A stretch of 64,000 nt of DNA from an uncultured Erythrobacter sp. (lineage in GTDB: Bacteria > Pseudomonadota > Alphaproteobacteria > Sphingomonadales > Sphingomonadaceae). This document shows, piece by piece, positions 28,507-41,334 of this stretch (position 1 is its first letter; every line of letters starts with the position of its first letter). The notes beneath the pieces are model-generated. The model saw only the letters and a list, made by a program, of their open reading frames with translations. It was not told the origin of the DNA and ran no database searches. The position numbers were made by a program, and so were the translations under genes. The stretch is taken from positions 310,001 to 374,000 of the forward strand of contig CANNCL010000001.1 of assembly GCA_947503155.1 (NCBI GenBank), in the 5' to 3' direction.

Positions 28507-29565
28507 CTACTTCGCGTCAGGCAGCAGCGGTCGCCACCAATCTTCGTTGGTTAGATACCAACGCAAAGTTTGCCTCAAACCTTCTTCAAACGTACGCTGC
28601 GCCGCATAATTCAACTCAGCGCGCGCCTTAGTCTCGTCAATCGCATAGCGGCGATCATGACCCGCACGGTCGGTGACGAAAGTCTTTAGCGTATCACTCT
28701 TTTTGCCCTTAGCTGCCGGTGCATCGGGATAGCGCTCAGCAAGCCCATCAACCTCTTCAAATGCCAGATCAGCTTCCCGGCAAATCGCGTCGATCACTTC
28801 CATATTGGGGAGCTCCGCGCCCCCGCCAATATTGTAAGTCTCACCCGGCTCGCCCTTTTCAAGGCACGCCTCAATGCCGCGGCAATGGTCTTCGACATGC
28901 AGCCAATCACGCACATTCATCCCGTCACCATAAATCGGCAGCGCGCGGCCTGACAAAGCATTGAGCAGGAATAGCGGGATCAGCTTTTCTGGATATTGGT
29001 AGGGACCATAATTGTTCGAACAATTGCTGGTCGTGACGTTCAAACCATATGTGTGGTGGTAGGCGCGAACCAAGTGATCAGACGCGGCCTTTGATGCTGA
29101 ATAGGGCGAATTGGGCGCATAGGCCGTAGTCTCGCTAAATGCTGGATCATCATCGCCCAGCGAACCGTAAACCTCATCGGTGGAGATGTGGTGGAACCGG
29201 TGGTCTGTCCCATCGCCGTCTAGCCACACCGAACGTGCGGCTTTTAGCAAACTGTTGGTGCCAAGGATGTTGGTGTCGATAAATGCATCAGGGCCAGTGA
29301 TTGACCGGTCGACATGGCTTTCAGCGGCAAAGTGTACGATGGTCGCAATGTCTCGTTCGCGCAGCAGTTTTTCAACCAGCTCCTGATCGCGAATGTCGCC
29401 TTCTACCAGTTCCGCGTGCGGCGCGCCGGCAATGGTCGAGGCATTGCCGGCATAGGTCAGAGCATCCAGCACGATGAGGTGGTCGCCGGGATGATGTTCG
29501 TTCCAATAATGGACGAAGTTGCCGCCGATAAAGCCGGCCCCTCCGGTGACGAGTAAATTAGCCAA
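28507..29565 (-). CDS. rmlB: dTDP-glucose 4,6-dehydratase
   Basis: NLLVTGGAGFIGGNFVHY ... YSASKAASDHLVRAYHHTYG; part of rmlBDCA; start codon (TTG near 29565) is provisional. Confidence 0.94.
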   Translation of the reverse strand: MANLLVTGGAGFIGGNFVHYWNEHHPGDHLIVLDALTYAGNASTIAGAPHAELVEGDIRDQELVEKLLRERDIATIVHFAAESHVDRSITGPDAFIDTNILGTNSLLKAARSVWLDGDGTDHRFHHISTDEVYGSLGDDDPAFSETTAYAPNSPYSASKAASDHLVRAYHHTYGLNVTTSNCSNNYGPYQYPEKLIPLFLLNALSGRALPIYGDGMNVRDWLHVEDHCRGIEACLEKGEPGETYNIGGGAELPNMEVIDAICREADLAFEEVDGLAERYPDAPAAKGKKSDTLKTFVTDRAGHDRRYAIDETKARAELNYAAQRTFEEGLRQTLRWYLTNEDWWRPLLPDAK

Positions 29566-30415
29566 GTGCCGCTTCCTCTTTGAGCATTTCGCGCAAGTTC
29601 GCGCGCCAAGGGACCGGAGTATCGCCAAGCAATGCGCGCGTCGCGCTGCAATCGAGCAGCGAATAGGCCGGGCGCGCGGCTGGGGTTGGATATTCGGCGG
29701 TCGTAATGGGATTGATTGTCGGTATTTTGGGGATCAGCCCAAGCGTATGTGCCTCTTCGGCAATCGCGGCGGCGAAATCATACCAGCTGACCTCGCCTGC
29801 ATCGCTGTGGTGGAATGTACCTGAGGCGTCTTTTTCGATCAGGCCCCAAATTGTTCGCGCAAGGCCGCTCGCCCAAGTCGGAGAGCCGATCTGATCGGCC
29901 ACCACGCTGATCTCGTCACGCTCCTTCATGAGGCGGATCATGGTGCGGACAAAATTCGCGCCGCCTGCTTCGTAAACCCAAGCCGTGCGCACCAGAATAT
30001 CGCTCGCCCGCACGTGATCCTCGCCCTCAGCCTTAGTGCGGCCATAGACGCTGATTGGCCCGCGCGCGTCGCCCGGTTTATAGGGCTGAGACGATTTGCC
30101 ATCGAACACAAAATCGGTGGAGACATGGACCAGCTTGCCGCCCTGCCCCTCCATTGCCTGGGCCATGATTGCAACCGCATCAGCGTTGATCGCTCTTGCG
30201 AGTTCTTCATCGCTTTCGGCCTTGTCCACTGCGGTATAGGCGGCGGCGTTGATGAGCACGTCGGGCGCCTCCGCACTGAGCCGTGCGAGCAACATGCCGG
30301 CGTCGGTCAGATCAACATCGTCAACATCGATAGCACTCAGATCGGCATAAGGCGGCGCAAGACGCTGAAGCGCACCGCCCAGCTGTCCGCCAGCTCCGGT
30401 GATCAATACCTTCAT
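29558..30415 (-). CDS. rmlD: dTDP-4-dehydrorhamnose reductase
   Basis: [16 protein letters not shown] ... YGRTKAEGE ... RTAWVYEAGGANFVRTM. Confidence 0.95.
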   Translation of the reverse strand: MKVLITGAGGQLGGALQRLAPPYADLSAIDVDDVDLTDAGMLLARLSAEAPDVLINAAAYTAVDKAESDEELARAINADAVAIMAQAMEGQGGKLVHVSTDFVFDGKSSQPYKPGDARGPISVYGRTKAEGEDHVRASDILVRTAWVYEAGGANFVRTMIRLMKERDEISVVADQIGSPTWASGLARTIWGLIEKDASGTFHHSDAGEVSWYDFAAAIAEEAHTLGLIPKIPTINPITTAEYPTPAARPAYSLLDCSATRALLGDTPVPWRANLREMLKEEAALG

Positions 30416-30957
30416 GAGAACGCCATCACATCGGCTAGTTCGAGACCCACCGTGTCTTTGTCAGAGATGATCGGATCAAGACCTTTTATGGGCCAATCAA
30501 TACCGACAGCCGGATCATCCCATGCCAGTGTATGCTCTGATTGCGGCGCATAAGGGGCGGTGCATTTATACAGGAAATCGGTGTCGTCACTGAGCGTCAA
30601 GAAACCGTGCGCAAACCCTTCTGGCACCCAGAACATCCGCTGATTTTCGGCTGAAAGTTCGACACCGGTCCATTTACCAAAATGGTCTGAAGATTTGCGC
30701 AAATCCACCGCTACATCAAACACCGCGCCGCGCGACACGCGGACCAATTTGCCCTGAGGGCCCGGATTTTGGAAATGCAGACCGCGCAGCACACCCTTTT
30801 GCGAATGGCTATGGTTGTCCTGCACCCAATTGAGATCAAGTCCAGCATCGCGAAACCCGGCCTCACTCCACGTTTCCATAAAGAACCCGCGTGCATCGCC
30901 GAAAACGCGCGGCTCGATAATTTTCGGGCCGGGAATATCGGTTTCTATGATGTTCAA
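30412..30957 (-). CDS. rmlC: dTDP-4-dehydrorhamnose 3,5-epimerase
   Basis: [33 protein letters not shown]. Confidence 0.96.
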
Positions 30958-31859
30958 GGCAGCACCGGACGCTCTAGCAAGCTGAGCAAATATTCGCCGT
31001 AACCAGACTTACGCAGCGGCTCGGCAATCTTTGCAAGCTGCTCATCATTGATGAAACCCTGATGCCACGCAATCTCTTCGGGGCATGCAATCTTGAGGCC
31101 CTGACGCTCTTCTGTGATCCGCACATAAGTTGCGGCGTCGAGCAAGGATGAATGCGTCCCGGTATCCAGCCAAGCAAAACCCCGGCCCATTATCTCGACC
31201 GACATGGCGCCCTCATCCAGATACAACCGATTGAGATCGGTAATCTCAAGCTCTCCGCGAGGCGAAGGCGCGAGATCGCGCGCCCGGTCAACCACGGTTT
31301 CGTCATAGAAATAGAGACCCGTCACGGCATAATTGGATTTGGGCACAGGCGGCTTCTCTTCGATAGAGACTGCCTTTCCGCTGTCATCAAATTCGACCAC
31401 GCCAAAGGCTTGCGGATCGGTCACACGATAGGCGAAAACGGTCGATCCTGTATCGCGTTCATCCGCGTTTCTCAGAAGGTCCGGCAGGCCGTGCCCGTAA
31501 AAAATATTGTCGCCAAGGATCAGAGCGCTCGGCCCGCCAGCGACGAAATCCGCGCCGATATGAAACGCTTGCGCGAGCCCTTCTGGCTTTGGTTGTTGAG
31601 CGTAGCTGAGGTTGACCCCAAAATCCGAACCATCACCCAAAACGCGCTGAAATTGAGCGGCGTCTTCGGGTGTGGTGATGATCAGGATATCCTGAATGCC
31701 CGCCAACATCAGAGTGCTAAGCGGATAATAGATCATCGGCTTGTCGAAGATCGGCATAAGCTGCTTCGATACGCCCTTGGTCAAGGGGTAAAGCCGGGTG
31801 CCTGATCCCCCCGCAAGAATGATGCCTTTGCGTGGTTTTGCCACTGATCCCGCCCTCAA
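30954..31859 (-). CDS. rmlA: Glucose-1-phosphate thymidylyltransferase
   Basis: [45 protein letters not shown]. Confidence 0.97.
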
Positions 31860-32064
31860 ATATACATGCCATTTAGCAGTCCATTTCGCATTGCAGCATG
31901 GCTAATTGCGGTCAACACCTAATCTCCCATTGGCGAGAGCGCAGACACGCCGCATTGGCGCGGCTCTGGTCAAAGCGGCGCAATTGGCCCATTACGGTAC
32001 AAAGCCGCGCATTATGCGCGAAAATTCGTCGCCACACAGGTCCGGATCAGCCACTGCAAAACAT

Positions 32065-33222
32065 ATGATGGACACGTCGTCAGTTGATGGATTTCTGGCT
32101 AGAGCCCTGCGCAATCTGCGCGCGGGCAAAGCAGCCAATTGGCCGTTAGATAGCGCCGCCAATTGGCAAAGCGTATGGTCGCGGATCGAATATCATGGGA
32201 TCCCGCTTGCGTTGCACCAGCACGCCGGGAATCTGGGTGATTGGCCGCAGCCACTGCTCAGCCGAATTGCGGAAGAGGCGCGCCTAATCGTGCTTTGGGA
32301 AACCACCCATCACGACGCCATCGCAAAGGTATTAGAGCAATTGCAGACGGCTGAAATCGAGGCGGTTGTTATGAAAGGAACCGCTCTCGCATACTCCTTC
32401 CACGATGAACCTGCGACGCGGCGGCGCGGTGACACGGATCTGTTGGTTCGGCCCCACAATCAAGCGCGAACACGCGCAATATTGTCGCAGCTCGGCTGGT
32501 ACCGCAAAGATGATCCGCACGGGCTGTATTATCAGGAAGGCTGGCTGCACGATGCCGCTGGATTCTTCGTCCATTCCATAGATTTGCATTGGGAACCGTC
32601 GGACCGGCCCGTCTTGCACTCTATCTTGCCAATCGAGAATTTCTTCGCGCGAAAGCAGCCAATGCCGCGATTTGGCGAAGCGGCATTTCGGCCAGATACC
32701 GCGACAATGATTTTGCATGCGGCGACCAATCAGAAATGGCATGCGCAGCACGGCTACGATGCCGAAGACGGGCGCTTGACCAGCCCAAAACGATTGATCT
32801 GGTCAGTTGATTTTGATCTGATGACCGCGAGCATGGATAGCGAAGATTGGGACCGCCTAACCGAGCATTGTACGCGCGAAGGCGCTGGACCGCTCGTGGC
32901 TGAGGCTTTGCGCGGGGCGCAGGAAGACTTGGGCACTGCCTTGCCCGAAGGTCCGCTGGCGAAGCTAGAAGGCGCGCGCCTGAGCCGGGATCTTGAAACC
33001 TATTTTTCCGACGCTGACAGCCTGAGTCAGTTCTGGCTCGACCTGCGAAAGACCAAGGGTCTGGCCAAGAAAGGTCGGCTGATCGCTGCGCGCGGATTGG
33101 CGCCGCGCGATCATTTGGTCGAAAAATACCCTTCTGCCAAAGGCTGGCCAACCGCCGCGCTTCAGGTGCGCTTGTGGCTGGCAACGACAGGGCGCTTGCT
33201 TCGCCGCATGGTGTCGTCATGA
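32065..33222 (+). CDS. Nucleotidyltransferase family protein (lasso-cluster associated)
   Basis: VVMKGTALAYSFHDEPATRRRGDTDLLV (NTP_transf_5-like); 4-nt overlap with the ABC exporter; start chosen at MMDTSSVDG. Confidence 0.82.
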   Translation: MMDTSSVDGFLARALRNLRAGKAANWPLDSAANWQSVWSRIEYHGIPLALHQHAGNLGDWPQPLLSRIAEEARLIVLWETTHHDAIAKVLEQLQTAEIEAVVMKGTALAYSFHDEPATRRRGDTDLLVRPHNQARTRAILSQLGWYRKDDPHGLYYQEGWLHDAAGFFVHSIDLHWEPSDRPVLHSILPIENFFARKQPMPRFGEAAFRPDTATMILHAATNQKWHAQHGYDAEDGRLTSPKRLIWSVDFDLMTASMDSEDWDRLTEHCTREGAGPLVAEALRGAQEDLGTALPEGPLAKLEGARLSRDLETYFSDADSLSQFWLDLRKTKGLAKKGRLIAARGLAPRDHLVEKYPSAKGWPTAALQVRLWLATTGRLLRRMVSS

Positions 33223-34889
33223 CCGCCGGATTTTGGCTTGAATGGGCGCGGCGGTTCCGCTGGCAATTGGGATTGATCAGCGCGCTAACCGTGCTCAGTT
33301 CGGCCGCGACATTGGTGGTGCCGTGGCTGGCCGCGCAAATACTCGGCGGAGTGGTCGCGCCGGATGCGGCTGGCTCAACCCAAATCGATTTTTCGCAGAC
33401 TTTGGCGCTGTTGGTGGCTGCCTTAATCGCCCTCACGGCGCTCAACATTCTTGCAGCGATCTTGTCTGAGCGCGCCTCGACCACGATCCTCACCGAATTG
33501 CGCAAGCGGATTTATAATCATGTCCAAATGATGCAATTGGGCTTTCACGATGCCGCGCGGCGCGGCGATGTGCTTGCACTGACATCCTACGAAGTCGGCA
33601 ATCTCAGCGATTTTCTGGCCAACACAATCGCCAACGCGCCAGCGATGATTTTGACCGCCTTAGGCGCGACGATTGTACTGTTCTGGATTGACCCGGTCAT
33701 GGCGGTGATCGTGCCGCTGATCATCCCCGTCTTCCTCATAATGATGAAACTAGCGGGTCGGCGTCTTCGCACAGTCTCCGCCGACGTTCGCGCCGCAGAA
33801 GTGGAACTGATCGCTATTGCAGAGCGCGATCTGGAGATGCTGCCCGCGATCAAAGCCTATGCAACCGAAGCGCATCACCGCGCAGAATTCGCAGAAGCCG
33901 CCGAAAATTCGCGGCGGTTGGCGGTTCGTCAGGCTCAGCTTAATGCCGCTATCGGTCCGGTCATTGCGCTGCTCGCGGCGCTGGCGGCGATTGCGGTGAT
34001 AATCGTCGGCAGTGAACAGCTTTCGCAAGGGGACAATTCGCCGAGTGAGCTGTTCGCATTCCTGCTTTATGCCGCACTTCTGACGCGCCCCGCTGGCGCG
34101 CTCGCCAATATGTATGGCGCCTATCAAATGGCGCGCGGCACATTGGGGCGGCTGGAGGATGTACTCGCGCTTGAGCCGGAGCCGGGACATTCGAGCGGTA
34201 TTCGTTTGGAGCGGGCTCGCGGTGCCATCGGCTTTGAGCAGGTGCAATTTGGTTACCCTGCGCGGCCACCGGTTTTCACGGATCTCAATCTCCAAATTGC
34301 TCCTGGCGAAATTATCGCGCTGACGGGTGATAACGGCGTGGGGAAATCCACTCTCGTACGGCTGCTTCTGCGGTTCTACCGGCCCAGCGCCGGGACCGTG
34401 ACGCTCGATGGAACGGACATTGGCGATTTTCAGGTTCAGGATTTGCGCCGCCAGTTTGGCTATGTGCCGCAGCGCGCCTTGCTGTTTAACGGAACCATCG
34501 CGGACAATATCGCCTTTGGCCAACCCTCAGCCGACCGGGATCGCGCTGTCAAAGACGCCGCAAGATTGGCCCAGGCGGACAGTTTTATCGCGGCATTGCC
34601 GGATGGGTTCGAGACCGAAATTGGTGATCACGGCGTGCGCCTTTCGGGCGGACAGCGGCAACGGATCGCGCTGGCAAGGGCGCTGTTCCGCGACCCTCCG
34701 ATCTATATCCTCGATGAAGCGACCAGCATGTATGACCTCGAAAGCGAGGCGGCCTTCGTCGAAAGCTGTGTCGATTCGTTAAAAGGGCGCACTGTCATCA
34801 TCATTACCCACCGGCCAGCAAGTCTGGCGCTGGCAGACAGAGTGCTCAAACTTTCAGCAAACGGTGTCTTCGACGAAAGTGTTGGCTAG
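33219..34889 (+). CDS. ABC transporter, fused TM-NBD (candidate lasso-peptide exporter)
   Basis: Six-TM exporter domain plus Walker A GDNGVGKST, LSGGQRQRIALARALF, Walker B IYILDEATS. Confidence 0.9.
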   Translation: MTAGFWLEWARRFRWQLGLISALTVLSSAATLVVPWLAAQILGGVVAPDAAGSTQIDFSQTLALLVAALIALTALNILAAILSERASTTILTELRKRIYNHVQMMQLGFHDAARRGDVLALTSYEVGNLSDFLANTIANAPAMILTALGATIVLFWIDPVMAVIVPLIIPVFLIMMKLAGRRLRTVSADVRAAEVELIAIAERDLEMLPAIKAYATEAHHRAEFAEAAENSRRLAVRQAQLNAAIGPVIALLAALAAIAVIIVGSEQLSQGDNSPSELFAFLLYAALLTRPAGALANMYGAYQMARGTLGRLEDVLALEPEPGHSSGIRLERARGAIGFEQVQFGYPARPPVFTDLNLQIAPGEIIALTGDNGVGKSTLVRLLLRFYRPSAGTVTLDGTDIGDFQVQDLRRQFGYVPQRALLFNGTIADNIAFGQPSADRDRAVKDAARLAQADSFIAALPDGFETEIGDHGVRLSGGQRQRIALARALFRDPPIYILDEATSMYDLESEAAFVESCVDSLKGRTVIIITHRPASLALADRVLKLSANGVFDESVG

Positions 34890-34916
34890 GCCGGCGCGGC
34901 CTAAGCTTTTTGACAC

Positions 34917-35198
34917 TTAAGCTGCATCAGCGGCGATCAATTCCTGATCCTGCAATTGCTTCGCCAGAGCCATCAAATCCGCTTCGATCCGCTCTCGCGG
35001 GGCGTCGAATTCGGTTTCGATCTGATCGCACAATTCGCTCAGATGATGCGGGCGCTCTGACAGCAATTCCCAAATCCGGCCGCCAATTGTGTCGAGCCCG
35101 AAATACTGTCCGCTCGAAAGGTCGAGCAAGACCGTCTCGCCGCCCACTTCGCGGGCGACAACATCATCAGAAACAGTGAAACGATCGCTTAATTGCAT
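34917..35198 (-). CDS. PqqD-like peptide chaperone / RiPP recognition element (lasso B1)
   Basis: MQLSDRFTVSDDVVAREVGGETVLLDLSSGQYFGLDTIGGRIWELL - typical PqqD/RRE; start at 35198 avoids overlap with the kinase. Confidence 0.9.
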   Translation of the reverse strand: MQLSDRFTVSDDVVAREVGGETVLLDLSSGQYFGLDTIGGRIWELLSERPHHLSELCDQIETEFDAPRERIEADLMALAKQLQDQELIAADAA

Positions 35199-35247
35199 GC
35201 GCAAATCCGGTTTTTCCCAAAGCAGTCCGCCAGAGCCTCCAAAAACG

Positions 35248-36126
35248 TCAAACGCCCTGACAATTGTCCAAGATTGCGGCCCGAACACGCGGCAATTCCG
35301 CGTAGTCGCGGGTAAAGTCAAGGGAGTAGCACTCAATGTCCTGAGACAGGTCAGCCATGCGCGCAAAATGCGCCTTTAGCCGCGGCTTATCCTCCACATC
35401 GAGAATAAAGGCGTGCGGCATCAAGGCACTGAGCGCTTCTTGCATGGAATATCGGCGGATCGACAAAGGCGCGCTGTGATCTGTGCCGAGCACATAGATT
35501 TGCTGCAATGGCACGGCGCGATCGGCAAATGGCAGAGTGCTGCCTGCTTCAACATCTTGCTTCATATCAGCGTCTTCGATGGGAGTGTTCTCCCCAAACA
35601 GATACCGCGCGCTATCGGCAAACAGCCTCAGTTTCGACCGTTTTGGCTGAAGGAGATAGTGCCCATCATTTAACCGCAAATCGATTACATCTTCGGTCAA
35701 GAACGGGTTGCCAGAGAGTGCAAACGATCCAGCCAATGTCGTCTTTCCCCCGCGCGACAGCCCCAAAAAGGCGATCGCGCCCGGCACCGCTTCGGCATCT
35801 GAACCCTCGCAACCAGCCATAACTGCGCTGCCATGAAGGAACAGCCCGCCTGTGTGATTGCCAAGGATCGGTTGAATCGCATTATGAAACAAGTTGATCG
35901 CGGTCTTGTCATCGCATTCGGGCGCTGACCAGCCGATCACGTCGAAATCAAAACCGTTTTGCGGCTCTTTGATCAAAAAATCGGCTTGGCCCGGGAAACG
36001 GATCAGAAAACCCGCATCCGCTTTATGAAACTCTGCCTGACAATATCCCTCTGGCGAGACCCAGCGATCATAGGGCTGCGTCGGCAATAGCTCTTGTGAG
36101 CGCGGTGGTTCGAGTTTCAATTCCAT
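35248..36126 (-). CDS. HPr kinase-like protein (lasso-associated / HprK-related kinase)
   Basis: GLFLHGSAVM...IAFLGLSRGGKTTLAGSFALSGNPFLTEDVIDL: P-loop with HprK-type context; next to B1. Confidence 0.82.
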   Translation of the reverse strand: MELKLEPPRSQELLPTQPYDRWVSPEGYCQAEFHKADAGFLIRFPGQADFLIKEPQNGFDFDVIGWSAPECDDKTAINLFHNAIQPILGNHTGGLFLHGSAVMAGCEGSDAEAVPGAIAFLGLSRGGKTTLAGSFALSGNPFLTEDVIDLRLNDGHYLLQPKRSKLRLFADSARYLFGENTPIEDADMKQDVEAGSTLPFADRAVPLQQIYVLGTDHSAPLSIRRYSMQEALSALMPHAFILDVEDKPRLKAHFARMADLSQDIECYSLDFTRDYAELPRVRAAILDNCQGV

Positions 36127-36611
36127 TGCGCCGATCCCCTAGCGCCATACGGCACCCTCCGCCAACAGCCAGTTTTCCGATGAGTCGGACCGATACAGTT
36201 CGCACCGCACACTAACGCCCAACAACCGATGCACCGCTAGAAACGTGTAAAAACAAGTAACAACACGCCAAACATGGTGAAAGCGCTTCGCCGCATCGGT
36301 CGTTAATTATATTTCGAAGTGATTCGCAGACCACTGAGCAAAACACGATTCGCGTTGATTCGATCATGGCCAATGCTGACCTTGCTGGCGGGGTTCGGGT
36401 GAATCGGCATGGCCCCGTTTATTCAGGGCAATTGATTGCTCCGGCCGCTCAGCAAAGCCGCGTCAAAACGCCAAAACGCACCATCATGAATGCCGAGCCT
36501 GCTCTGACAACTTGTCCATTCTCACGGCACAATTCATCATTCAAAGCGCCGGCTGCATCCATGCCAACCCCCCAAAAGGCCAACATTTTGAAAGCTTTAC
36601 GCCGCAAAAAC

Positions 36612-36638
36612 AAAAAGGCACCCCGTTTGGGGTGCCTT
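36612..36638 (-). terminator. Rho-independent terminator downstream of the lasso precursor
   Basis: Perfect 10-bp stem AAGGCACCCC-gttt-GGGGTGCCTT followed on the minus strand by a T-tract; 50 nt downstream of the precursor stop. Confidence 0.85.
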
Positions 36639-36688
36639 ATGTTTTGCAGTCCAACGCGCCGCCATTAAGCGACGCAGAGACTAACAAA

Positions 36689-36817
36689 TTAGAAGCGTGA
36701 GTCAGTCACCGCACCATCACGGAAACGTGTACCGCTACCGCCGGTCAGGTTACGAACAGAACCAAAAACAGTCAGCTTAGGAGCTTCGTATTTCGCTTTT
36801 TCAATAGTCTTAGTCAT
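36689..36817 (-). CDS. Lasso peptide precursor MTKTIEKAKYEAPKLTVFGSVRNLTGGSGTRFRDGAVTDSRF
   Basis: 42 aa; leader has YxxPxLxxxG (YEAPKLTVFG) and Thr at -2; ATG overlaps cyclase stop (ATGA); flanked by lasso biosynthesis genes; absent from the supplied ORF track because it is short. Confidence 0.88.
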   Translation of the reverse strand: MTKTIEKAKYEAPKLTVFGSVRNLTGGSGTRFRDGAVTDSRF

Positions 36818-38730
36818 TCTCGGATCCTGTCCTGTTGCACCCCAGTGGCAGGGTTAATCTGTGTTACGCAGTTATCCTGATACAAAAATGCTGCGGATGC
36901 GTAAAGACCCCAAATTTCCCAAGCCCAATAATCTCCTTCGGGAGCATCAAAATCGACCGACAAGACGGGCGCCAGCGCCTTCACATCACACAATTGCGCG
37001 AGCTGCTTATTGGCATTTTCGCGCACATAATCGGCAAATTGCCCGTCAATCTTTGTGTTAGTGAAGTTAGCCTTACTTTTGCGCTCCAGTATGACCGGCG
37101 GCAAAATCCCTGCCATCGCCTGCCTGTGCAGAGCCTTCGATACGCTGCCCTTGCGTTTGATTTCAGCAGGCGTTTGCATCGAAAATTCGATGAATGACCT
37201 GCTGAGCATAGGATGACGCGATTCGAAACCGATCGCAGAACGTTGACGCCGCATCAGCGAATGAGAAAGATCGCCGAATGGTGACGTCGCTATATTGTGC
37301 TTGGACCAATGAACCGCGTTTTCCGGGAGTTCAGCCTCATAAGCCTCCTCCGCCTCTATCATCGCGTCGCGCAATTCAGGTGACAACCAGCTCAGCGGCG
37401 GATCGCTGCGCCGGCGCCGCTCTCGCAAATGTCTGCGAATTGCTCGGCGGACGGGTTCTGGCATGATTTCACCGCCAGTATGCCGCAATGCCTGTTTCAG
37501 CGCCGCGGGCCAACCGAATGCCTGGCTGTCACGGCGCAGCGCGCGCCAATATCCGCCAAAATCGCGCTCTGACACAAATTCCCGGTAATATTGGCTATTG
37601 CCCTGCAACCATTCATCCCCGCCGCCGCCATTGATCATGACGCGCGAACCATCCGCGACGACGCGCTTTTCCATCCCCAACATCATCGCACCATTTGATG
37701 GGATCGGAATACCGCGATGCCACGCGGCATCTTGCGTGTACCAATTGATATCGGGATCGAACAAAGGCACTTCGGTCAATTCGCGCCCGATATGTTCGGC
37801 GACCGCACGGGCATAGGGCAGCTCAAACGCGTTGCCCCCTTCTTCCGCAGCAAGCGAATATCCCTTGAAACCGGGCGCTAGCAACTGTCCGGATTTCTCA
37901 AGCCGGTCCGCAACACAATAGAGCGAGGACGAATCGAGCCCGCCGCTAACCGCGATGCCGACTGGCTGGTCGCAGCGGGATGACCTGCGGACACAATCGA
38001 ACAACATCTCCCGGTAATGCTCGGCATATTCGGCGTCGGTTTTGTAGCGAATCGTAATGTCGGTCGGCGGCACCCAATATTTTCGCGTCGAAAGCTTTTC
38101 GCCATCATAGCTAAGCGTATGCGCGCGGGTCAGGCGCTTCACACCTTTCCACGGCGTCGTATCGCGCAGAAACCAACGCTTCGTAATCACCTGCGCCAAA
38201 TAACGGTGATCCGGTTCTAGCGGAGCGGCGCTAAGCGCGGAAATCGTGCGAAAATCGGACGCTATGATGAGGCGGCCATACTCTTCTTTATAATAGAGCG
38301 GCAAAAACCCCATGTGATCACGGGTCGCCCACAAGCGTCCAGAACGGCAATCGGCGATCACCAGCGAATATTCGCCGTGCAACCTATCGGCGCAATCTTC
38401 GCCCCATGTTTCATAGGCGCGGCGCGCAATCTCGACGTCTGATCGGCTGCGCAAACGAACGCCTCTTGCCTCTAGGTCGGCGGCGATTTCGGACGGATTG
38501 AGCAAATGACCATCGAAGATAGCGGCTATTCGCCCGTCGCCGCTAACATCAGGCTGAGGGCATTCGCGCGATTCGGCATTGGTGTGCAGCGTGCAAGCCG
38601 CCAATCCGATGCGCTCAGATATCCATGTCGCGCAATGGTCATGAGGAACTTGGCCAAGCACCGACGCCATCGCATCAACTTCATCACCGCATACGCCGCT
38701 GGCCGCAAAAATGGCTCCGATTGCAGACAC
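36814..38730 (-). CDS. Asparagine synthetase-like lasso cyclase (C protein)
   Basis: AVSGGLDSSSLYCVAD PP-loop; N-terminus MSAIGAIF lacks the glutaminase Cys2; next to precursor and B2. Confidence 0.9.
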   Translation of the reverse strand: MSAIGAIFAASGVCGDEVDAMASVLGQVPHDHCATWISERIGLAACTLHTNAESRECPQPDVSGDGRIAAIFDGHLLNPSEIAADLEARGVRLRSRSDVEIARRAYETWGEDCADRLHGEYSLVIADCRSGRLWATRDHMGFLPLYYKEEYGRLIIASDFRTISALSAAPLEPDHRYLAQVITKRWFLRDTTPWKGVKRLTRAHTLSYDGEKLSTRKYWVPPTDITIRYKTDAEYAEHYREMLFDCVRRSSRCDQPVGIAVSGGLDSSSLYCVADRLEKSGQLLAPGFKGYSLAAEEGGNAFELPYARAVAEHIGRELTEVPLFDPDINWYTQDAAWHRGIPIPSNGAMMLGMEKRVVADGSRVMINGGGGDEWLQGNSQYYREFVSERDFGGYWRALRRDSQAFGWPAALKQALRHTGGEIMPEPVRRAIRRHLRERRRRSDPPLSWLSPELRDAMIEAEEAYEAELPENAVHWSKHNIATSPFGDLSHSLMRRQRSAIGFESRHPMLSRSFIEFSMQTPAEIKRKGSVSKALHRQAMAGILPPVILERKSKANFTNTKIDGQFADYVRENANKQLAQLCDVKALAPVLSVDFDAPEGDYWAWEIWGLYASAAFLYQDNCVTQINPATGVQQDRIRE

Positions 38731-38833
38731 CTAAGTCAGTCCCATCCCTTGTCAGCTAATTCGGCTTGCCTCATGCGGCGTTTTGCACGGGCGCCGCGCC
38801 TGTGCCAATGAGCGGGCAAGTCATAGGCACATC

Positions 38834-39382
38834 ATGAATTCGGCGCAATCTCCTCACATTCCGGCACCCGGCCAAAAACCAGGTTGGAAAGACATCGCTT
38901 GGTTGGCGCGATATTGCGCGCGCGGATTGTGGGAATTGGTGCGCGCTAGGATCGTCTTTGCCCGTTTGCCAGCAAAGGCAATTCCCGAACGCAATCGCGC
39001 ATCAAAGAGTGCGGCTGATCCGACAACGACCATCACACCTGCGGCGCTGGCGCGGATCACCTATGTTCTACCGCGCCTGTCTGACCGTCTTCCTTGGCGA
39101 AGCGATTGTTTGGTTCAGGCAATCGCGGGTCAAGACTGGTTGTCTGCATTGGGGGGCGCCAGCGAGATTCAGATCGGGGTGGAGCACCCAAAGGATGGGG
39201 ACTTTGGCGCCCATGCATGGCTGTTATATAACGACAAAGAGCATGGCGACCACATTGTGACAGGGGGGGATATTGATCAGTATCACCTGATTCTCTCCGA
39301 TACGCGGCTGGCCGATTCGCGGTTGGATGGCGATTCGCAGGCTGAAAATGTTGGTGAGAGCGGGGAGTCCGGACGAAACTAA
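38834..39382 (+). CDS. Lasso peptide biosynthesis B2 (transglutaminase-like leader peptidase)
   Basis: Cys-His-Asp triad context: RSDCLVQAIAGQDWL / FGAHAWLLY / TGGDIDQYHLIL; start at MNSAQSPH. Confidence 0.88.
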   Translation: MNSAQSPHIPAPGQKPGWKDIAWLARYCARGLWELVRARIVFARLPAKAIPERNRASKSAADPTTTITPAALARITYVLPRLSDRLPWRSDCLVQAIAGQDWLSALGGASEIQIGVEHPKDGDFGAHAWLLYNDKEHGDHIVTGGDIDQYHLILSDTRLADSRLDGDSQAENVGESGESGRN

Positions 39383-39522
39383 CCGCGTTAGCACGGTAAA
39401 ATTCGACAATTTCGCCCGTAATCAGGCTTCGTTTACCCTTTTTTCGTAACCCAAGGTTGTCAAGCTTGCTGCACTGCACTAGGGATTGTCCCGTAATCAG
39501 GTGCAATTAAAAGGTTAATTCG

Positions 39523-39795
39523 ATGATCAACAAGATGTCTCGTCTGATGGTGACCGCCGCTGCGGCCAGCATGGCCTTCGCGCCAATCGCTGCTCAGGCT
39601 AACACTCGCGCAAGTGACAGCGCTCCAGTTTATACCAGCTCGGCTTCGCAGCCTGGCTTGGCTCGTTCCGCTGATGGTGAAGAACTTCGCGGCACTCCAG
39701 GTATCCTCATCGCGCTTCTCGCAGCTGCTGCTGCGATTGCCGGCGTAATCGCTGTCAGCAGCGGTGATGATGATGGCCAGTCGCCAGGCACCTAA
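39523..39795 (+). CDS. Small secreted/membrane hypothetical protein (signal peptide plus C-terminal TM)
   Basis: MINKMSRLMVTAAAASMAFAPIAAQA signal peptide; C-terminal GILIALLAAAAAIAGVIAVSSGDDDG. Confidence 0.7.
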   Translation: MINKMSRLMVTAAAASMAFAPIAAQANTRASDSAPVYTSSASQPGLARSADGEELRGTPGILIALLAAAAAIAGVIAVSSGDDDGQSPGT

Positions 39796-39841
39796 GTCTG
39801 ACGCAGTCTGACCGACATCACGTTGGTTTGGAAAAGAATAA

Positions 39842-39872
39842 GCGCGCGGTTTTGCCGGGCGCTTTTTCTTTG
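39842..39872 (+). terminator. Rho-independent terminator after the small secreted protein gene
   Basis: agcgcgcgg-ttttg-ccgggcgct stem (one mismatch) followed by tttttcttt. Confidence 0.65.
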
Positions 39873-39897
39873 TCCGCAATATATCTATTGATAGGAA

Positions 39898-41334
39898 ATG
39901 TCCTTGGCTGAGCCTGCTCCTTCATACCGCCGTGTACCGCAACGTACCGATCCGCGTCATTTTGATGTGATCGAAAGCCTTGCCAGTGGCAGCAGCACAT
40001 TCTGGGCAATTGCTGCGATTGTCGTTTTCGCAGTGGCGTTTGGTGGGGGCGGCTCGAAATATGGCCTTGCAAATCTGATCGTGCAGATCGCCGCGCTGTT
40101 CGCGCTTTCATTCCACCGCCGCGCCTTCTTCGACTTTTGGAAATCCGCACCAGCTGCGATGACCGTGCTGATCGGATTGTCGCTCTTGCTGCCCCTCGCC
40201 TTCCTGATACCTTTGCCAGAAAGCGTCTGGACAGCGTTGCCGGGCCGCGAATTGATGGCTCAATCTTTCGATCTTATCGGCGGGAAAAGCTGGGCAACCG
40301 CGAGCGTTGATCCGATCCGGACGCTTCTTGCTTTGAGCGCGTTGATCGTACCGATTGCGCTATTGAGTATCGGTTGGAGCGCGCAGCGGCCGCAGCTGAT
40401 TTTGCTGGGTTGGGTCGTCGTTGCTCTGGGTCTTGTGAATTTCTTGATCGGCATTCCTCAGGTTCTTTCAAACAGCGAGACAGGGGTGATCTACCCCGAA
40501 AATCCGATGCCAGGCGTGCTGTTTGGTAGCTTTGCAAATCGCAATTCCGCTGGCCTGTTTCTGGTTGGCGCGCTTGCATTGGCCGCCTTGCTTCCGGCGC
40601 CCAGTCAGTTTGGTAGAGCCACCCTTGGCATTCGCATCGCCGCATGTTTGCTGTTGGTTGTTGCCATCATCCTGACCAAGTCGCGCACAGCGCTCGTCTT
40701 GGCATTCCTTCCGATTGGCCTCGTTGCCCTCAATATGATTTTCACCCTGCGCGTCCGATCCGGCCCGCAACAGGGCATCACAAGCCGCAAAGCTCTGTTC
40801 GTTTTGGTGCCCGTTGCTCTAATCGCTGGCACCCTCGCGCTGACGCTTTTCGCAGCCCCCGGACGCATGAATGATGTGATCGAGCGGTTTGACGATTCGG
40901 ATGACGCGCGGGCCTATATTTGGGAAGATGCCGTGTATTCGGCGGATCGCTACTGGCCCATCGGTTCGGGCACGGGCACTTTTGACGATGTGTTTCAGGT
41001 TGACGAGTCGTTGGAAAATATGACCCCGCGCCGTGCTGGCCGCGCGCATAATGACTATCTTGAAGTCGCGATTGAGGCAGGTTTGCCTGGTACCGTGTTA
41101 ATCGCGGCATGGCTCATACTTCTCGTATGGCTCAGTTGGCGCGCCCGCAAATCGCAAGATCGCTGGATCGCGTGGAGCGGTGCGGTGATTTTGCTCACTA
41201 TCGCTTTGCAATCCATCACCGATTACCCGCTGCGCAATATGACGATGTTGGCTTTCGGTAGCTTTGCGCTGCTCATTCTTGCTCGGTTCGGCGCGCCGAA
41301 GCCCGAAACTGCAAACCAAGAGGTGTCGCCATGA
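39898..41334 (+). CDS. O-antigen ligase family protein (Wzy_C)
   Basis: Multi-TM with AYIWEDAVYSADRYWPIGSGTGTF ... RAHNDYLEVAIEAGLPGTVLI. Confidence 0.9.
   Translation: MSLAEPAPSYRRVPQRTDPRHFDVIESLASGSSTFWAIAAIVVFAVAFGGGGSKYGLANLIVQIAALFALSFHRRAFFDFWKSAPAAMTVLIGLSLLLPLAFLIPLPESVWTALPGRELMAQSFDLIGGKSWATASVDPIRTLLALSALIVPIALLSIGWSAQRPQLILLGWVVVALGLVNFLIGIPQVLSNSETGVIYPENPMPGVLFGSFANRNSAGLFLVGALALAALLPAPSQFGRATLGIRIAACLLLVVAIILTKSRTALVLAFLPIGLVALNMIFTLRVRSGPQQGITSRKALFVLVPVALIAGTLALTLFAAPGRMNDVIERFDDSDDARAYIWEDAVYSADRYWPIGSGTGTFDDVFQVDESLENMTPRRAGRAHNDYLEVAIEAGLPGTVLIAAWLILLVWLSWRARKSQDRWIAWSGAVILLTIALQSITDYPLRNMTMLAFGSFALLILARFGAPKPETANQEVSP

Follow-up and report, generated by a model that had tools for sequence, protein, structure and literature searches.

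The lasso cluster and its precursor gene

The window, a 64,000-nucleotide stretch of DNA from an uncultured Erythrobacter sp., contains a complete lasso peptide cluster in the order N, D, B1, K, A, C, B2, and its lasso enzymes all look intact. The precursor gene, lasA (36689..36817, minus strand), translates as MTKTIEKAKYEAPKLTVFGSVRNLTGGSGTRFRDGAVTDSRF followed by a stop codon, in exact agreement with the 42-aa ORF described in an earlier note on this DNA, and its ATG overlaps the stop of the upstream 638-aa cyclase gene lasC (ATGA). A 26-aa leader (36740..36817, minus strand) precedes the core GSGTRFRDGAVTDSRF (36692..36739, minus strand), for which conservation over 69 distinct precursors predicts a Gly1-Asp8 ring and a phospho-acceptor at Ser2. 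A terminator-like hairpin of 10 pairs followed by a T run lies 3' of lasA (36615..36638, minus strand); its position after the gene is right, although the terminator scan gave no more sites in the region than expected by chance.

The surrounding genes supply the expected enzymes. LasC (36814..38730, minus strand) is an asparagine-synthetase-like macrolactam cyclase (PF00733, 4.1e-41; GATase_7; SGGLDSS motif) that matches the lasso cyclase model NF033535 at 5e-67, yet falls below the cut-off of that model, which is cyanobacterial. LasB1 (34917..35198, minus strand) is a PqqD-type leader-binding protein (PF05402, 4.6e-18) whose closest solved structure in a PDB search was the lasso protein TbiB1 (2.9e-14), and lasB2 (38834..39382, plus strand, in an ORF that opens at 38783) encodes a transglutaminase-like leader peptidase (PF13471, 5e-17; NF033537 lasso_biosyn_B2, 53.9 bits against a cut-off of 33). 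The HPr-kinase-like precursor kinase gene lasK (35248..36126, minus strand) lies next to lasA. On the plus strand, lasN (31906..33222, start uncertain) encodes a nucleotidyltransferase of the NTP_transf_5 family (PF14907, 6.2e-28) and overlaps by an ATGA with lasD (33219..34889), the gene for an MsbA-like ABC exporter (PF00664, PF00005).

An ORF as short as lasA could have arisen by chance, or could encode a leader-like peptide without a mature product. Both readings are refuted by synteny in 16 genomes, by a dN/dS of about 0.10 (about 0.07 in the leader and 0.15 in the core; 15 intact lasA genes, with synonymous sites near saturation) and by a family-model match: the leader scores 26.4 bits (E 4.4e-6; curated cut-off 19) against NCBIfam NF033521 lasso_leader_L3, the kind of HMM check that the earlier note had called for. 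That model covers the leader only and is silent on core, ring and tailoring; as lasA passes it, PGAP would probably call the gene. Counted from Gly1, the leader has Tyr-17, Pro-14, Leu-12 and Thr-2, with the spacing found in BsfA (PMC10368454). From its sequence we regard 36689-36817 as confirmed to be a genuine lasso precursor gene. With a YxxPxL and Thr-2 leader, Gly1 and Asp8 in the core, and B1, B2 and C genes all present, the cluster is a lasso system by every gene-level feature tested, ring closure being predicted.

Precursor matches occurred in 40 of the 114 genomes of the genus, the named relatives including Erythrobacter (among them E. longus DSM 6997 and strain NAP1), Aurantiacibacter, Alteraurantiacibacter and others. 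The core design GS..FRDG....RF is nearly identical, and the gene order the same, in 16 genomes including that of the window. The Arg-rich ring and C-terminal Phe, previously noted as unusual, are traits common to a close clade and not a peculiarity of the strain. One of these 16 (G003, locus L046) has stop codons in both A and K, and the system is seemingly decaying there. None of the 69 distinct precursors of the lasA leader type departs from Gly1; 63 have Asp8 as ring acid and the remaining 6 Asp9, while ring positions 3-7 and the tail vary. This pattern supports the earlier prediction of a leader cut after Gly26 and a Gly1-Asp8 ring of eight members. Ser2 is present in 67/69, and the two exceptions have Thr2 in one case and Met2 with Ser3 in the other.

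The kinase and its predicted acceptor

LasK had no match in Pfam, and a sequence search of the PDB returned nothing useful. An AlphaFold2 model built from 53 homologues (pLDDT 94.4) matched PEPCK and HPr kinase/phosphatase structures in Foldseek (E 1e-6 to 1e-4), and as modelled lasK has the PEPCK/HPr-kinase fold. In a motif alignment the protein retains the His (H98), the Walker A Lys (GLSRGGKTT) and the second acidic residue (E145-D146) of lasso kinases; the first residue of the acidic pair is Glu in the lasK family and Asp in the characterised lasso kinases (PMC10368454).

Known kinases of this kind act at two places. The paeninodin kinase, SyanK and PsmK modify a C-terminal Ser (reviewed in PMC9266682), and BsfK of Bradymonas sediminis phosphorylates Ser3 of BsfA (PMC10368454). 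We rejected C-terminal Ser as the acceptor in the lasA family: only 2 of 59 cores end in Ser, most ending in Phe, Pro or Met, and the window core ends in Phe. In seven of the 69 precursors neither Ser nor Thr follows the ring acid, and together with the rarity of C-terminal Ser this leaves Ser2 as the sole shared hydroxyl. Because Ser2 is so nearly invariant while the paeninodin-type C-terminal Ser is absent, in-ring Ser2 is the best-predicted acceptor, and on balance we favour its phosphorylation by lasK.

The distribution of kinases in the family is consistent with this assignment. At seven loci from other genera of the family, where the kinases are distant and SyanK-like, the precursors carry a terminal Ser together with Gly or Ala at position 2. 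In a second lasso type of Erythrobacter, core position 3 is Ser or Thr. When the acceptor classes (ring2, ring3, C-terminal) were read off the precursors, groups in the kinase tree followed where the acceptor is presumed to lie (96/97 for the ring2 clade, 100/98 for the C-terminal one), although the ring3 rows did not form one clade and BsfK was a very long separate branch. As whole clusters, precursor and kinase together, descend as units, this match is a correlation and not proof, and Ser2 may likewise be conserved partly through common descent, or because B2 or C demands it. In the strongest form of the latter explanation, Ser2 is retained as a small P2' residue for B2 or C and lasK modifies Thr4, Thr12 or Ser14 instead. 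The leader residues by the cut (LTGGS) are equally invariant, as such a demand would predict; however, both exceptions at position 2 retain a hydroxyl, either in place or shifted to position 3, the tail hydroxyls are unconserved, and other lasso systems of the family combine homologous enzymes with Gly or Ala at position 2. We consider a P2' demand with modification elsewhere somewhat unlikely.

Its predicted acceptor site sets the lasA system apart from both the paeninodin and the Bsf types. It shares with the paeninodin, pseudomycoidin and SyanK group an HPr-kinase-like K, and with pseudomycoidin also an N (PMC9266682), but differs from them in lacking the C-terminal Ser on which their kinases act. 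The Bsf cluster has the same A, B1, B2, C, K, N and D set, the same Y-17, P-14 and L-12, a Gly1-Asp8 ring and an in-ring acceptor, which in lasA is predicted. Nevertheless, BsfA has phospho-Ser3 and Ile(-2), whereas lasA has Gly3, and hence no hydroxyl at core position 3, together with Thr(-2) and the conserved Ser2. The LPP phosphopeptides of Bacillota also resemble the lasA system in having an HprK-like kinase, an RRE, an NTP transferase, an MsbA-like exporter and nearby polysaccharide loci, and the LppK acceptor, Ser3, lies near the core N-terminus, as does the predicted Ser2 of lasA; unlike the window, LPP clusters have an SpI-like leader peptidase and no cyclase, in place of B2 and C (PMC13381572).

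These observations bear on the expected product. The masses given previously for the core stand on recalculation (linear 1727.834, cyclised 1709.823, [M+H]+ 1710.831), but the untailored 1709.82 Da peptide is unlikely to be the final form, given the genes for an HPr-kinase-like K and a nucleotidyltransferase N in the cluster and the near invariance of Ser2. The calculated [M+H]+ is 1790.797 with added HPO3 and 1952.850 with HPO3 plus hexose.

Unlinked and Peptidase_S74-fused precursors

The genome of the window holds a second precursor gene (L067; G000:C1:173181-173300, minus strand) with the core GSGTVGRDGAVGFRNTPGGGGAR, for which the calculated [M+H]+ after cyclisation is 2085.033, and no lasso genes within 6.5 kb. 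The same site, between genes for a sodium:solute symporter and a TauD-family dioxygenase, carries an unlinked precursor in 12 genomes (this one and 11 others), and only in genomes that have a lasso cluster. Where the precursor is missing the two flanking genes overlap by 1-3 bases; where it is present they are mostly separated by about 220-460 bp. With the weak G096 match set aside, unlinked precursors are present in 15 of the 35 genomes that have the cluster and in 1 of the 79 that lack it (Fisher 2e-8, uncorrected for kinship). Unlinked precursors most likely use the enzymes of the cluster in trans. Precursors of a further unlinked kind (GSANRGSDGALGMTMNP and similar) were seen at L062, L065 and L069 (G110, G093), where the surroundings, judged by eye, comprise ssb/COQ9 genes twice and recombinase-looking genes once.

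In 10 distinct relatives the same leader and ring are followed by a Peptidase_S74 domain. Six of these fusions lie in lasso clusters (L186:7989-8345, L189, L194, L204, L206 and L208) and four are unlinked, at the symporter site (L074, L076, L078 and L079); the window's own genome had no Peptidase_S74 match. The Ser and Lys of the SDxRxK motif of the fusions, five positions apart, are both invariant; in the fusion of Aurantiacibacter sp. D1-12, for instance, self-cleavage would fall before SDPRAK. A profile search matched the self-cleaving domain of MyRF and a phage fibre, and a structure model, weak overall (pLDDT 63.9), had the MyRF S74/ICA domain as its best fold match (E 0.016). The distance from Gly1 to the predicted cut is 16 residues, the length of the window core, in 4 of the 6 in-cluster fusions. 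Self-cleavage by the S74 domain may set the end of the tail, before or after cyclisation. Text searches of the literature found no paper describing orphan or S74-fused lasso precursors, and the leader and core strings of lasA occurred in none of the main texts searched; the core may already be listed in silico in RODEO-type supplementary tables.

The slot in the surface-polysaccharide locus and a proposed role

The cluster is embedded among genes for a UDP-sugar dehydrogenase, an epimerase, Wzz, glycosyltransferases, a flippase, a pyruvyl transferase, the dTDP-rhamnose genes and two Wzy_C proteins. Its conserved borders are rmlB, rmlD, rmlC and rmlA (28507..31859, minus strand) on one side and on the other a Wzy_C gene of the O-antigen ligase/polymerase family (39898..41334, plus strand; PF04932, 1.4e-20), so that 31859-39898 forms a slot in which the lasso module of relatives is found again. 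Beside Wzy_C, 39523-39795 (plus strand) encodes a 90-aa exported-looking small protein without a Pfam match, and a similar ORF occurs in the slot of L280, which otherwise holds D alone.

The gap between rmlA and Wzy_C measures 6977-9538 bp in 26 genomes with the lasso type of the window; in further genomes with this type rmlA lies elsewhere on the contig (3) or was not found on the same contig (4). For the second lasso type the gap is 8561-9596 bp in all 11 genomes. In 6 genomes that lack a full module it is 842-2666 bp, and their slots are empty or contain only D, a remnant of B1 or an integrase. In G015 and G009 the same Wzy_C is flanked by a third lasso type, more distant than the other two. 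Between the first and second types D is about 57-61% identical and C and K only about 23-32%, as if the peptide-making part had been swapped and the exporter retained. In G046 the system is split (L212, L073), with B1-K-D-N-B2 in the slot, while C lies elsewhere together with two A genes, whose precursors contain Cys.

Many proteobacterial lasso peptides have no tailoring, and the window could likewise specify an ordinary unphosphorylated secreted peptide, antibacterial or signalling, with K and N acting elsewhere or persisting as relics. The slot would then be a cargo hot spot, and its conservation may indeed mean no more than a favoured site of integration, given that several lasso lineages and, in one case, an integrase have been accommodated there. 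However, K is intact, near-universal with the lasA type and co-varies with the acceptor position, and G046 kept the kinase and its neighbours in the slot though A and C had moved. An unphosphorylated product is, in our judgement, unlikely. Taking genes, families, conservation, selection, the fold of K and the slot together, lasA is probably the precursor of a kinase-modified lasso peptide.

In the pathway we propose for this kinase-modified peptide, B1 would bind the YEAPKL leader, K would phosphorylate core Ser2 while the leader is still attached, B2 would cut after Gly26, and C would close the Gly1-Asp8 linkage around the tail GAVTDSRF. The phosphate may then be the target of N, in the way proposed for PsmN in its addition of hexose; this chemistry is put forward tentatively, by analogy, and LppN was inactive in a heterologous host (PMC13381572). 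D would export the product, which would act at or on surface polysaccharide. As the place of the cassette within a rhamnose/Wzy polysaccharide locus is fixed, that is the most likely place of action, and the slot makes a polysaccharide role for the product a good possibility, short of probable. In Bacilli, a 2026 study reported that paeninodins and LPPs co-localise with capsule loci (PMC13381572).

This alphaproteobacterial family shows the same polysaccharide link as the Bacilli, with synteny tight enough for testing, since one rmlA/Wzy_C slot holds different lasso types or stands empty. The conserved Ser2, the unlinked precursors presumed to be matured in trans and the S74-fused precursors are undescribed for lasso peptides in the papers searched, and all three features can be tested in the culturable E. 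longus and Erythrobacter sp. NAP1. The fixed surface-sugar slot, the extra precursors elsewhere and the S74 fusions raise the possibility that the peptide functions together with surface sugars and is not simply an antibiotic. It is conceivable, though we advance this more cautiously than the individual steps, that a lasso peptide phosphorylated on Ser2, and probably sugar-modified as well, functions within a surface-polysaccharide system in Erythrobacteraceae, and that one enzyme set would mature cluster, orphan and S74-ended precursors alike.
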